A DNA stretch of 49,630 bases from Actinomycetota bacterium. Lineage in GTDB: Bacteria; Actinomycetota; Actinomycetes; S36-B12. A program made the position numbers and the translations under genes. How positions within the stretch are numbered: position 1 is the first letter of the stretch; every line of letters begins with the position of its first letter. Of the stretch, positions 27,698 through 32,208 are shown piece by piece. The stretch is taken from the NCBI GenBank assembly GCA_947449035.1, contig CANFQC010000014.1, forward strand, positions 1-49,630, in the 5' to 3' direction. The notes below the pieces were generated by a model, which had not been told where the DNA came from, did not search any database, and was given only the letters and a program-made list of their open reading frames with translations.

Positions 27698-28672
27698 ATG
27701 GGGCGAATAGTCCTGGTGACCGGTGTCTCCCGGTACCTCGGCGGCAAGCTGGCCGCCCATCTCGCCGCCGATCCCGGTGTTGACCGGGTTATCGGCGTCG
27801 ATGTTGTTGCCCCCACGATGACTCTTGACGGCGTGGATTTCGTGCGCGCCGATATTCGCAGCCCCGTCATCGCCAAGGTCCTCGGCGAGGCCGAGGTCGA
27901 CACAGTCGTGCACATGGGGGTGCTGGCCACCCCACGCCAGGCCGGCGGCCGCTCGGCGATGAAGGAAATCAACGTCATCGGCACCATGCAGCTTCTCGCT
28001 GCCTGCCAGAAGACACCCAGCATCGAATCCTTCATCGTGAAGTCGACCTCCTCGGTGTACGGCTGTGGTCCGAAGGACCCCGCGATGTTCACCGAGGAAA
28101 CCGAGCCGCGTCATACACCGACCTCCGGCTGGGCGAAGGACTCCGTCGAGGTCGAGGGCTACGTGCGCGGCTTCTCCAGGCGGCGTCCCGACGTCTGCGT
28201 CACCACTTTCCGGTTCGCGAACTTCATTGGTCCGGTTGTCCGTACTCCGATGACTGCCTATTACGGACTTCCGGTCGTGCCGACTGTGATGGGCTTCGAT
28301 GCCCGCCTGCAATTCGTGCACGAAGACGACGGTCTCGAGTCCTTGCGTCATGCAGTGCACGCTCGCAAGCCGGGAACCTTCAATGTCGCCGGTGATGGGG
28401 TCATCACGCTGTCGCAGTCGATCCGGCGAATGGGCAAGAAGCAGCTGTCGGTTCCGCAGTTCATGTTCTCCACCATTGGCCGCAATCTCAGTCGCACAGG
28501 TGTCGTCGATTTCTCCCCCGAGCAGATTCGTTTCATGACTTACGGACGCGTACTCGACACGAGCGACTACACCGCGACCTTCGACCATCGCCTGCGGTAC
28601 TCCACCCCTGACGCCTTCGCTGATTTCGCGCATCGTGATGAGTCCGCGCTCTCGGAGGTGCCCAATGCCTGA
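27698..28672 (+). CDS. NAD-dependent epimerase/dehydratase family protein (extended SDR)
   Basis: A 324-residue Rossmann-fold protein. The nucleotide motif is VTGVSRYLGGKLAAHLA (residues 7-23). VDTVVHMGVLATPR and SFIVKSTSSVYGCGP correspond to the SDR core with its conserved Ser. The usual Tyr-x3-Lys is missing: at the expected place is SGWAKDSVE (about 143-151), with Trp for Tyr. It may therefore bind NAD(P) without classical SDR chemistry. Substrate is unknown. A GGGGAGG site lies 5 nt before the ATG, and it overlaps the acyltransferase gene by 8 nt. The pair plus a convergent HAD phosphatase is a conserved actinobacterial group. Confidence 0.85.
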   Translation: MGRIVLVTGVSRYLGGKLAAHLAADPGVDRVIGVDVVAPTMTLDGVDFVRADIRSPVIAKVLGEAEVDTVVHMGVLATPRQAGGRSAMKEINVIGTMQLLAACQKTPSIESFIVKSTSSVYGCGPKDPAMFTEETEPRHTPTSGWAKDSVEVEGYVRGFSRRRPDVCVTTFRFANFIGPVVRTPMTAYYGLPVVPTVMGFDARLQFVHEDDGLESLRHAVHARKPGTFNVAGDGVITLSQSIRRMGKKQLSVPQFMFSTIGRNLSRTGVVDFSPEQIRFMTYGRVLDTSDYTATFDHRLRYSTPDAFADFAHRDESALSEVPNA

Positions 28673-29585
28673 CGATTCCCTGACACCGTCGAAGGCGGCA
28701 CGACTGGTCGGAAACACTGGACCACAGCCTCATGAGGTCATCCCTGATGAGCAGATCATCGACGACCGCGACCTCAGTCAGTTCATCTCGGATCGACTCG
28801 CAGGCAAGTACGAAGTTGACGACTTCGGCTTCGACCCCGAACTCACCGACAAAGTGCTGATGCAGGCGCTACGGCCGATGTACCGCAAGTGGTTCAGAGT
28901 CGAAACGAGTGGCCTCGACAACGTTCCCGATGTCGGCGGTGCACTCGTGGTCGGCAATCACTCGGGCACGATCGCACTCGATGCGCTCATGACTCAGGTC
29001 GCACTTCTCGATGATCATCCGGCTCGAAGGCACCTGCGCATGCTCGCGGCGAACCTCGTGTTCGAGACTCCGTTCGTGGGCGAGCTCGCGCGCAAAGCCG
29101 GTCACACCCTGGCGTGCCAACCTGATGCCGAACGGCTGCTCAACTCCGGCGAGATCGTCGGCGTGTGGCCCGAGGGATTCAAGGGCACGGGCAAGCCATT
29201 TAGTGAGCGCTACAAGCTGCAGCGCTTCGGTCGAGGCGGCTTCGTGGCCGCCGCCTTGCGCACGCGCACTCCGATCATCCCGACAGCTGTGATCGGCGCC
29301 GAGGAGACCTACCCGATGATCGGCAATGCAAAGGGCCTGGCTCGCCTTCTCGGATTCCCGTACTTCCCGATCACTCCCACCTTCCCGTGGCTGGGGCCGC
29401 TGGGTCTCGTGCCGCTGCCGAGCAAGTGGATGATCCACTTCTGCGAGCCGATTCCGACAGACGGCTACCCCGAGAATGCTGCCGATGATCCGATGCTCGT
29501 GTTCAACCTGACCGACCAGGTGCGCGAGACGATTCAGACGACTATCTACGACTTGTTGGTGAAGAGGAATTCCGTCTTCGGCTGA
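28665..29585 (+). CDS. Lysophospholipid/glycerophosphate acyltransferase family protein
   Basis: A 306-residue PlsC-like protein. The catalytic box reads GNHSGTIALDAL, giving His99-x6-Asp106 rather than the classical His-x4-Asp; this form is seen in an actinobacterial branch of the family. The glycerophosphate-binding motif is WPEGFKGTGKPF. Further motifs are ARLLGFPYFPITPTFPWLGPLG and PLPSKWMIHFCEPI. It probably acylates a lysophospholipid or related lipid at the membrane. GGAGG lies 7 nt before the ATG. Its last three residues and stop (VFG*) are encoded by the first copy of the tandem repeat that follows. Confidence 0.85.
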   Translation: MPDDSLTPSKAARLVGNTGPQPHEVIPDEQIIDDRDLSQFISDRLAGKYEVDDFGFDPELTDKVLMQALRPMYRKWFRVETSGLDNVPDVGGALVVGNHSGTIALDALMTQVALLDDHPARRHLRMLAANLVFETPFVGELARKAGHTLACQPDAERLLNSGEIVGVWPEGFKGTGKPFSERYKLQRFGRGGFVAAALRTRTPIIPTAVIGAEETYPMIGNAKGLARLLGFPYFPITPTFPWLGPLGLVPLPSKWMIHFCEPIPTDGYPENAADDPMLVFNLTDQVRETIQTTIYDLLVKRNSVFG

Positions 29586-29695
29586 GGAGTGAGCGACGCG
29601 AGCCCCGGAAGACTAAGACCATAGTCACGTCTTCGGCTGAGGAGTCAGCGACGCGAGCCCCGGAAGACTAAGACCATAGTCACGTCTTCGGCTGA
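29574..29695. repeat. 55-bp tandem repeat, 2.2 copies, with hairpins
   Basis: Copies lie at 29574-29628 and 29629-29683, plus a 12-nt partial copy at 29684-29695 (GTCTTCGGCTGA). They differ at one base (29591 G, 29646 C). In each unit GTCTTC/GAAGAC and GACTA/TAGTC can form stems that share the bases GAC and so compete. The repeat begins in the last codons of the acyltransferase and ends at the stop of the convergent HAD gene. The gap between the two stops is 110 nt, exactly two periods. It may act as a two-way terminator. Confidence 0.9.
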
Positions 29696-30577
29696 TTAGC
29701 GCCGGCGAGATCGACCGATGAGATAGCCGAGTACGAGGCCTGCACCCACGCCGGCTGCGTAGCCGCCGACACCTGACACGGCGGGGATCACGAACTGCTT
29801 GAACTGCTCGCGCTTGCGGAAGTCGCGAATCGGCCATTGGTTCTCACGTGCGTGATCGCGCAGCGTGGAATCAGGATTCACGGCGACCGGATTGCCGACT
29901 GAGCTGAGCATCGGGATGTCATTCGATGAGTCTGAGTACGCCGAGCATGCGGCGAGATCGAAGCCTTCGCTCTGCGCAAGTGCTCGAATGGCCTCTGCTT
30001 TGGCAAGCCCGTGCAACGGTGCGCCGTCGAGGTGGCCGGTGTAGATGCCATCCTTGACCTCGGAGACCGTGCCGAGTGCACCGGTCAGGCCGAGGCGCGA
30101 AGCGATGAGGGTGGCGAGCTCAACAGGGGTCGCGGTGACCAGCCAGACCTGCTGGCCGGCATCGAGATGTGCCTGCGCGAGAGCCAATGTGCCGGGGATC
30201 AGCTTGTCGATCAGGATCTCGTCGAAGATTTCCTCGCCGAGTGCTACGAGTTCGTCAACGCTGCGCCCCTCGATGAACGACAGGCCTGCCTCGGTTGCTG
30301 AGGCCATGTCCTCGAGGTCCTCGGAGCCTGTCATCACGAACTTGACCTGCTTGACCGCGAAGCCGGCGATCTCGGATGCACTGAAGTAGTTGCGACGTGC
30401 CAGGCCGAGGGCAATGTGAAACAGGCTCGAGCCGCGCATGATCGTGTTGTCGACGTCGAAGAATGCGGCGGACTTGGCGTCGGGTGCGCTCAGATGCGCG
30501 GATTCGACATTCGCCGCCGCGGCCGAAGCCTGCCCGGCTCGGCGGTAGGAGCCGAGGACTCCACCATCGCTGGTCAT
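29696..30577 (-). CDS. HAD-superfamily (IB) phosphatase with C-terminal membrane anchor
   Basis: A 293-residue SerB-like hydrolase. The nucleophile motif is FFDVDNTIMRGS (Asp41, Asp43). Motif II is WLVTATPVEL, and motifs III/IV are KAEAIRALA and YSDSSNDIPMLSSVGNPVAVNPD. The C-terminus has a glycine-rich hydrophobic helix (GVGGYAAGVGAGLVLGYLIG) ending in RSRRR, which suggests a membrane tether. Relatives beside PlsC-like genes are thought to act on phospholipid intermediates, but the substrate is not known. The ATG at 30577 is chosen from a TAGCCT -10 box 7 nt upstream; the frame runs further up with no family similarity. Confidence 0.85.
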   Translation of the reverse strand: MTSDGGVLGSYRRAGQASAAAANVESAHLSAPDAKSAAFFDVDNTIMRGSSLFHIALGLARRNYFSASEIAGFAVKQVKFVMTGSEDLEDMASATEAGLSFIEGRSVDELVALGEEIFDEILIDKLIPGTLALAQAHLDAGQQVWLVTATPVELATLIASRLGLTGALGTVSEVKDGIYTGHLDGAPLHGLAKAEAIRALAQSEGFDLAACSAYSDSSNDIPMLSSVGNPVAVNPDSTLRDHARENQWPIRDFRKREQFKQFVIPAVSGVGGYAAGVGAGLVLGYLIGRSRRR

Positions 30578-30584
30578 GTTGTCC

Positions 30585-30590
30585 AGGCTA
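30585..30590 (-). promoter_or_regulatory. Leaderless -10 box for the HAD gene
   Basis: TAGCCT on the minus strand, 7 nt before the ATG at 30577. Confidence 0.45.
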
Positions 30591-30684
30591 CCGAGTGAAG
30601 CCCGCATCGGCTCAGGCGACTGTGACAAACTGATGCGGGGGACAGCAGTTCCTCTGTGATTGATGTCGGAACGAGGGAGGCACC

Positions 30685-32208
30685 GTGCTCGGACAGCCCC
30701 GCGGCAACGCGAATATCTCCGAGTACCTGCGCGAATCAGCGAATCGCGACCCGCAGGGCTGTGCACTTGTCGATGGCACCCTTCGCCTCTCCTGGGCCGA
30801 ACTTGATTCGCAGGTGAATCACTTCGCGGCAGGCCTCGTACGCCATGGCCTTCATGCGGGTGACCGCGTGGGGCTTCTGCTGGGTAATTCCGCTGACTAC
30901 GTGATCGCGTTTTATGGAGCGCTACGTGCGGGGCTGTGCGTCGTGCCTATGAATCCTGCCTACACGGCTCCGGAGGTTGCCGTCCTGGTCTCCGATGCCG
31001 GAGTCCGCTTAATCATCGCTTCTGCGGCTACTTCATCGGTAGCCACCGAAGTCGCCGACGCGGTTCACTCGTGCGAGGTCGTCCGTGTCGGCACATCTGC
31101 GTGGGAGTCACTCTTTGACGCGTCCTCACTTCTCGCTGAAGTCTCGACATCGGGTGATGCGCTCGCACTATTGCTCTTCACTGCCGGTACCAGCGGACGA
31201 CCGAAGGGGGCGATGCTGACTCATGGTGCTCTGCGTGCGAACACCGAGTCGCTGCTGTCATTGAATTCGCCCTCGGCTGTCCAGGCCGGTGATGTCGTGC
31301 TTGCCGTGCTCCCGATGTTCCACGTCTACGGCCTCAACACGGTTCTGAATCTTTCTGTCGCCGCAGGCGCAACGTCGGTGATCGTCGATCGATTCGATCC
31401 GGTCGACTCACTTCGCCTAGTGACGTCCGAGTCGATAACCACCATCGCGGGAGCACCGGCGATGTACCAGGCGTGGTTGCGTGTGCCCGGGCTTCGTAAG
31501 GCCATTGCGGGCGTTCGTTTGCTCTCCAGCGGTGGTGCCCCGCTTCCGCCTGCAGTATTCGAGTCCTTCGCCGAGTTCAGCGGCAAGCAGGTGTTCGAGG
31601 GCTATGGCATGACCGAGTGCGCGCCGGTTGTGGCGACCACTCTTGTTGATGGTCATCCGAGCGCAGGATCAGTCGGCAAGACGATCCCCGGAGTTGAAGT
31701 ACGTCTTGTTGATGAGTCCGGTCACGATGTTGATGACGGTGATCCCGGCGAGGTGTGGGTGCGCGGTGCTTCGGTCTTCCGCGGGTACTGGCCTGATGGT
31801 GCTGGTGGCCCCGATGCACATGGCTGGTTCCGCTCGGGTGACATTGCGTATGCAGATGAAGATGGCGCGTTGCATCTCGTTGATCGACGCCGCGAGGTGA
31901 TTCTCGTCAACGGCTTCAACGTCTACCCGCGCGAGATCGAAGTCGTCATCGAGTCGATGCCGCAGGTCGCGGAGGTTGCCGTTCTCGGTATCCCCGACGA
32001 CGTCACGGGTGAGGGTGTGCTCGCGTTGGTCGTGCCGCGCGGCTCGGTGACGTCCGATGACGTGCTCTCCTTCTGCTCGACCCGTCTCGCGCGATTCAAG
32101 ACACCGTCAGTCATTCGGATCGTCGAATCCCTGCCGCACTCAGCAGCGGGGAAGGTAGCCAAGGGCCGCCTTCGCGATGTCTACGGTGACGGCGGAGCCG
32201 AGGCCTGA
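30685..32208 (+). CDS. Acyl-CoA synthetase (AMP-binding, long-chain fatty acid-CoA ligase type)
   Basis: A 507-residue adenylate-forming enzyme. The ATP/AMP P-loop is LLFTAGTSGRPKGAML. A5 is FEGYGMTECAPVV, A7 is GWFRSGDIAYADEDGALHLVDRRREVILVNGFNVYPREIE, and the catalytic Lys is near HSAAGKVAKGRLRD. It would activate a carboxylic acid, probably a fatty acid, as its CoA thioester. It starts with GTG, with GGGAGG 4 nt upstream, and is divergent from the HAD gene. The glutaredoxin-like gene begins directly after its stop. Confidence 0.9.
   Translation: MLGQPRGNANISEYLRESANRDPQGCALVDGTLRLSWAELDSQVNHFAAGLVRHGLHAGDRVGLLLGNSADYVIAFYGALRAGLCVVPMNPAYTAPEVAVLVSDAGVRLIIASAATSSVATEVADAVHSCEVVRVGTSAWESLFDASSLLAEVSTSGDALALLLFTAGTSGRPKGAMLTHGALRANTESLLSLNSPSAVQAGDVVLAVLPMFHVYGLNTVLNLSVAAGATSVIVDRFDPVDSLRLVTSESITTIAGAPAMYQAWLRVPGLRKAIAGVRLLSSGGAPLPPAVFESFAEFSGKQVFEGYGMTECAPVVATTLVDGHPSAGSVGKTIPGVEVRLVDESGHDVDDGDPGEVWVRGASVFRGYWPDGAGGPDAHGWFRSGDIAYADEDGALHLVDRRREVILVNGFNVYPREIEVVIESMPQVAEVAVLGIPDDVTGEGVLALVVPRGSVTSDDVLSFCSTRLARFKTPSVIRIVESLPHSAAGKVAKGRLRDVYGDGGAEA

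Follow-up and report, generated by a model that had tools for sequence, protein, structure and literature searches.

A stop-codon-associated interspersed repeat with arms copied from the host gene end, in tandem between two convergent actinobacterial genes

REP sequences and BIMEs are short, imperfect palindromic elements that are extragenic and dispersed, often lie just 3′ of genes and occur in multi-copy clusters. Nunvar et al. describe the incorporation of a gene 3′ end into the inter-REP segment of BIMEs (PMC2817692). The MIRU and MIRU-VNTR loci of Mycobacterium are intergenic tandem units of 40–100 bp whose copy number varies between strains (PMC2734929). Perfect reverse-complement repeats are known to arise by template switching (PMC8794818), and the resulting quasi-palindrome mutations are hairpin-capable copies of adjacent sequence. 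Intrinsic terminators that overlap stop codons likewise place a hairpin after the stop, which is often common to convergent genes.

The repeat described here resembles REPs and BIMEs in all of the general features listed above. Unlike REPs, it is accompanied by no RAYT gene (PF01797; 0 of 13 genomes) and has no GTAG/GTGG foot (REP table in PMC2817692): its core begins GAGGAG and follows a locus-specific segment, X. The units of one array all have the same orientation, whereas BIME copies alternate, and the arms are locus-specific copies of the host gene end, which sets the element apart from both. Judged from published descriptions, the likeness to MIRUs lies in interspersed tandem units, here of 53–57 bp, whose number varies among orthologous loci. 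MIRUs are oriented like the genes next to them and overlap codons of these genes; we know of no description of inverted and direct host-gene-end copies in each MIRU. Quasi-palindrome mutations share the reverse-complement copying of adjacent sequence but are normally sporadic and have no link with a conserved core dispersed over stop codons. Unlike intrinsic terminators, the element has no U-tract, conserves the primary sequence of its core, forms tandem units and is missing from most orthologous sites. We class it as a stop-codon-associated interspersed repeat with host-copied arms, akin in kind to REP/BIME and MIRU but lacking the features that define REPs. No description of the core sequence strings was found in open-access full text, and the literature on stop-codon repeats of Actinobacteria, on Nanopelagicales repeats and on TRIT/RNIE terminators held nothing describing the element. 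Rfam 15 gave no match above the gathering score for the window or 12 other loci; the only match was a tRNA elsewhere.

Within the 49,630-nucleotide stretch of DNA analysed (the window), positions 29573–29695 form by far the top tandem array (TRF: period 55, 2.2 copies, 98% match, score 239). Two full units, 29573–29627 and 29628–29682, differ at one base and are followed by a partial third copy (29683–29695). The first-pass annotation had proposed two full copies with one mismatch and a 12-nt partial copy; the units and the partial copy stand, while the latter is 13 nt long. The coordinates bear out its further claim that the array starts within the final codons of an acyltransferase gene and reaches as far as the stop of a HAD-family hydrolase gene. 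The former (28635–29585, plus strand, predicted start; Pfam PF01553) ends with TGA at 29583–29585, and the latter, its convergent neighbour (29696–30571, minus strand, predicted start; Pfam PF12710), ends at 29696–29698, read as TTA on the plus strand. The distance between the two stops is 110 nt, exactly two periods of 55, as had been stated.

Across loci, the units follow one plan. X comprises the ~10 final bases of the host gene and precedes a 26-nt core, GAGGAGYGAGCGNAGCGAGCCCCGSA; then come X′ (an inverted X), a spacer and X″ (a direct X), after which either the next core or downstream DNA follows. The spacer often starts CATGRR and is weakly conserved, and the X′ slot between core and spacer is fairly fixed at ~10 nt. 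In the window, all parts of the array read on the plus strand. The host sequence being copied, X (CGTCTTCGGCTGA, 29573–29585), consists of the last acyltransferase codons and the stop (..VFG*). The core of unit 1 (GAGGAGTGAGCGACGCGAGCCCCGGA, 29584–29609, delimited by a 40-locus consensus) opens with two bases, GA, that also belong to the stop TGA. X′ of unit 1 (CCGGAAGAC, 29605–29613) overlaps the end of the core and is an imperfect inverted copy of GTCTTCGG; the spacer or loop (TAAGACCATAGTCA) occupies 29614–29627. X″ of unit 1 (29628–29640), again CGTCTTCGGCTGA, doubles as X of unit 2, whose core (GAGGAGTCAGCGACGCGAGCCCCGGA, 29639–29664) carries one substitution and is followed by the remaining X′ and spacer (29665–29682). 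The 13-nt partial copy at 29683–29695 is X″ of unit 2, and its final TGA abuts the HAD stop. Because genome G034 has an identical gene end, GTCTTCGGCTGA, without the element (L026), this gene end is host sequence that exists independently of the repeat.

The complementarity between X and X′ is specific to each locus. Over 40 independent loci whose host gene ends are unrelated, duplexes of X with X′ have a mean energy of −13.8 kcal/mol; exchanging X at random between loci gives −8.3 (s.d. 0.42; z −13.2). The match is exact in a Cellulomonas example (X TCGACATCT, X′ AGATGTCGA) and in a Ruania example (X ACGACCTGT, X′ ACAGGTCGT); in the window it is imperfect, with GAAGAC pairing and the remainder pairing only via a bulge. 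In 27 of the 40 loci, X″ repeats X with at least 8/9 identity, and 15 of the 40 hold two or more cores at the 53–57-bp tandem period, with one to four cores per locus. Under DNA energy parameters, the X-core-X′ segment of several loci adopts a fold in which X pairs with X′ as a stem and the core forms the cap, including a G-N-A loop; at L097, L108 and L122, the pattern GG.GY..GC-GNA-GC..GC.CC lies within the X/X′ stem. G-N-A loops and tandem G-A pairs are in general expected to add further stability. X-core-X′ and X′-spacer-X″ can thus each form a locus-specific hairpin. The usual dispersed palindromic repeats have a fixed stem; here the cap is conserved and the arms are copied from the host gene, at dozens of loci. 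Two stems sharing GAC, noted earlier in each window unit, are literally present (GAAGAC/GTCTTC and GACTA/TAGTC), but the second is not conserved: the sister species G002 has GACGA...TAGAC. Folding of single units showed no extra stability over shuffled sequence (z −1.2 to +0.6), and we dropped hairpin strength as a line of evidence, isolated units being equal to shuffles in this respect.

The core sits at the stop codons of genes in the sense orientation. Of the 35 independent loci that have sufficient upstream sequence, 27 show the stop of a sense open reading frame of at least 120 amino acids between −12 and +8 relative to the core, compared with 4.4% expected from random positions on both strands of the same loci (binomial 3e-30). 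Antisense stop codons at the core number zero among the 35 loci. The hosts are ordinary genes; by eye, their C-terminal sequences resemble those of a crp-type regulator, the SRP protein Ffh, a glutaredoxin and a succinate dehydrogenase iron-sulphur subunit. At L084, L085, L092, L124, L129, L133 and L143, the host protein ends in Glu-Glu with the core's GAGGAGTGA in frame, and the element may therefore be the source of both the stop codon and the two final residues there.

This placement raises the question of whether the element is a selected transcription-termination or mRNA 3′-end element whose X′ evolved to pair with X. The sense orientation, the position at the stop codon, the locus-specific complementarity and the convergent context in the window all fit such a role. 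So does L199, a second glutaredoxin-like gene end in G034, where a different, terminator-like hairpin likewise extends its stem into the last codons and the stop (GATTCCATAG...CTATGGAATC); gene-end copying may therefore extend beyond this core. Against selection for such a role, no G+C-rich stem followed by a T-run occurs on either strand of 28600–30800, several other loci have a strong, ordinary terminator-like hairpin downstream of the array, and most orthologous sites are without any element. Moreover, the core is conserved across unrelated loci in sequence, beyond structure, which implies spread by copying. We consider this explanation improbable. The proposal of a two-way terminator at the window site likewise finds no support, given the missing stem and T-run, the unexceptional stability of the unit and the separate hairpins that follow arrays elsewhere. 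If the element has a role, it is most likely that of a putative post-stop hairpin on the mRNA 3′ end, for end protection or as an aid to termination; it may equally be neutral or selfish. A second dispersed hairpin with a long stem (GAGTGGCCAG..CTGGCCACTC type) follows genes of the sister genus at L125, L127, L132 and L155, and this type sometimes lies directly 3′ of a repeat array.

We compared the window site with the same gene pair in relatives. The window's own genome (G000) carries the unit at this locus only. In the sister species G002, whose acyltransferase is 95% identical, the site is filled by two units, the second truncated after the core. In G001, the third genome of the genus, it is empty, with a gap of −4 and the stops overlapping as CTAG. 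More distant relatives of the family mostly have gaps of −4 to about 30 nt, including the empty sites of G059 (gap 0, TGA then TCA directly) and G061 (gap 3). These values agree with the earlier suggestion that removing both periods would leave the stops adjacent, and other convergent pairs in the window, by mechanical ORF calls, have gaps that include −4, −4, 27 and 69 nt. Beyond the window locus, precise reconstruction of empty sites is limited by diverged downstream DNA. Two genomes of the sister genus also carry the element at the window site: in G018, the contig starts within the array, and in G060 the core is a variant and the gene end that is copied, GCGTTCGG, is that of G060 itself. 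In the filled sites of G002, G018 and G060, X″ tracks the gene end of each lineage. Taken at face value, at least three lineages (G000/G002, G018 and G060) have the element here, through repeated insertion or through an ancient insertion with repeated loss. Unrelated gap sequence of the same length at orthologous loci, which the first-pass annotation had named as evidence against its reading, is not the rule, since most relatives are nearly gapless or hold the same element. The exception is G064. Here an unrelated insert of ~108 nt (L155) separates the stops of the acyltransferase and HAD genes; it contains a long near-perfect hairpin (GTGGCCAGTCGTGGGGG...CCCCCACGACTGGCCAC) and is flanked by ~15 bp that directly repeat the gene end (TCGGCCTTCGGCTAG). 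In G065 (L153), a close relative of G064, the site is empty.

Units resemble each other more closely within a species than between species. They differ at 1/55 positions within G000 and at 0/35 in the comparable part of G002, versus 5/55 between the two, where adjacent coding DNA differs at 36/300. A T/C difference in X is common to every copy within each of the two species. By sequence comparison, the pattern is one of recent amplification or homogenisation within each lineage, in keeping with the recent expansion suggested at the outset. The number of units also varies between species: at the glutaredoxin site, one unit is present in G026 and two or more in G018, G034 and G067, a remnant is left in G062 and nine genomes are empty.

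A manual count from the coordinates puts eight arrays in relatives no more than about 125 nt from a contig end: at the starts of G018:C36, G066:C168, G068:C318, G068:C607 and G062:C21 and at the ends of G064:C28, G068:C292 and G034:C36. As many draft contigs end in or near arrays, true copy numbers are probably higher than assembled, and exact copy numbers from draft assemblies are not secure. These contig ends, at which assemblers struggle, would also be expected if the array were an artefact of draft assembly. Recurrence of the element at one and the same site in independent genomes makes such an artefact extremely unlikely; tandem or near-tandem units are present in assemblies of independent species and in the isolates Actinotalea sp. 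Marseille-Q4924 and Ruania albidiflava DSM 18029.

A small palindromic repeat family had been offered as one reading of the array, with a search of the genome and its relatives as the check; the search found many loci, which supports that idea and extends it considerably. The core pattern has matches in 13 of the 14 sister-genus genomes, as many as 19 in a single genome, whereas a reversed control pattern gives 0 or 1. The sister genus has up to ~12 loci per genome, and occurrence elsewhere is sporadic. The exact core was found in only 1 of 396 genomes sampled phylum-wide, the window's own, and is thus not general to actinobacteria. A scan of 84,980 species genomes found the core in Nanopelagicales and Actinomycetales MAGs, Actinotalea, Cellulomonas, Ruania, Actinoplanes and a Nocardioidaceae MAG, and similar sequences in three alphaproteobacteria. 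We left out the pattern matches L066, L079 and L119 as chance, because they have neither X′ nor X″. The alphaproteobacterial matches (CCTGAGGAGYGAGCGNNGCGAGCCCCGAAGG; L101, L102 and L115) have short palindromic flanks and would represent a related or convergent REP-like family. Judged from these matches, the repeat is a member of a dispersed family in the window's family of aquatic actinobacteria. The single locus in the window's own genome would fit an ordinary tandem duplication, local in origin, of unrelated intergenic sequence that belongs to no wider family, but the same core at the window site and at many other loci of other genomes refutes it, and we give it almost no credence.

How, then, were the arms copied? 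The reading we lean towards is that the array consists of two tandem, non-coding, REP-like elements of a stop-codon family whose arms arose via template switching, followed by tandem amplification. A short hairpin core would spread to the 3′ ends of genes. DNA synthesis that snaps back or switches template at this hairpin would copy the adjacent gene end and so create X′. X and X″, as direct copies, would then allow slippage or unequal exchange, which would add tandem units and keep them homogeneous. The spreading part would then be the core with the spacer, and the local part X′ with X″. No template-switch intermediate was seen, and we infer this step from the anatomy. Template switching gives no account of how the core arrives at new stop codons, and the fairly fixed ~10-nt X′ slot is more regular than expected from random switching and may hint at an enzyme.

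A target-duplicating enzyme is the main rival to template switching. In its explicit form, the repeat is a true non-autonomous mobile element: an as yet hypothetical transposase inserts core and spacer at gene ends, duplicates the target as X and X″, and leaves the inverted X′ in the course of integration. The regular anatomy and slot length, the filling of the window site in at least three lineages, the recurrence in distant Actinomycetes and the different hairpin at the same site in G064, with its flanking gene-end copy, speak for such an element. However, Y1/IS200/RAYT-type transposases (PF01797) were detected in none of the 13 genomes, although positive controls were, and reverse transcriptase (PF00078) was found in only 3 of 14, being absent from the element-rich G018 and G065. 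We know of no transposition chemistry that leaves an inverted target copy inside the element, and we regard this form of the rival as unlikely. On the same distributions, we rejected a RAYT/IS200 transposase as driver (absent from 13 genomes) and retroelement-borne insertion (reverse transcriptase patchy, 3 of 14). Somewhat less speculative, though still only a tentative proposal, is a mobile repeat that reads the 3′ end of its target gene and rewrites it, inverted and direct, at sense stop codons, using non-RAYT machinery. If true, each copy of such a mobile repeat tailors its hairpin arms to the host gene.

Whether template switching or an enzyme built them, these arrays are a testable system for how hairpins are made at gene ends. 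They also serve as a warning that such arrays break draft assemblies, and they provide a natural variable-number repeat for these largely uncultured actinobacteria.
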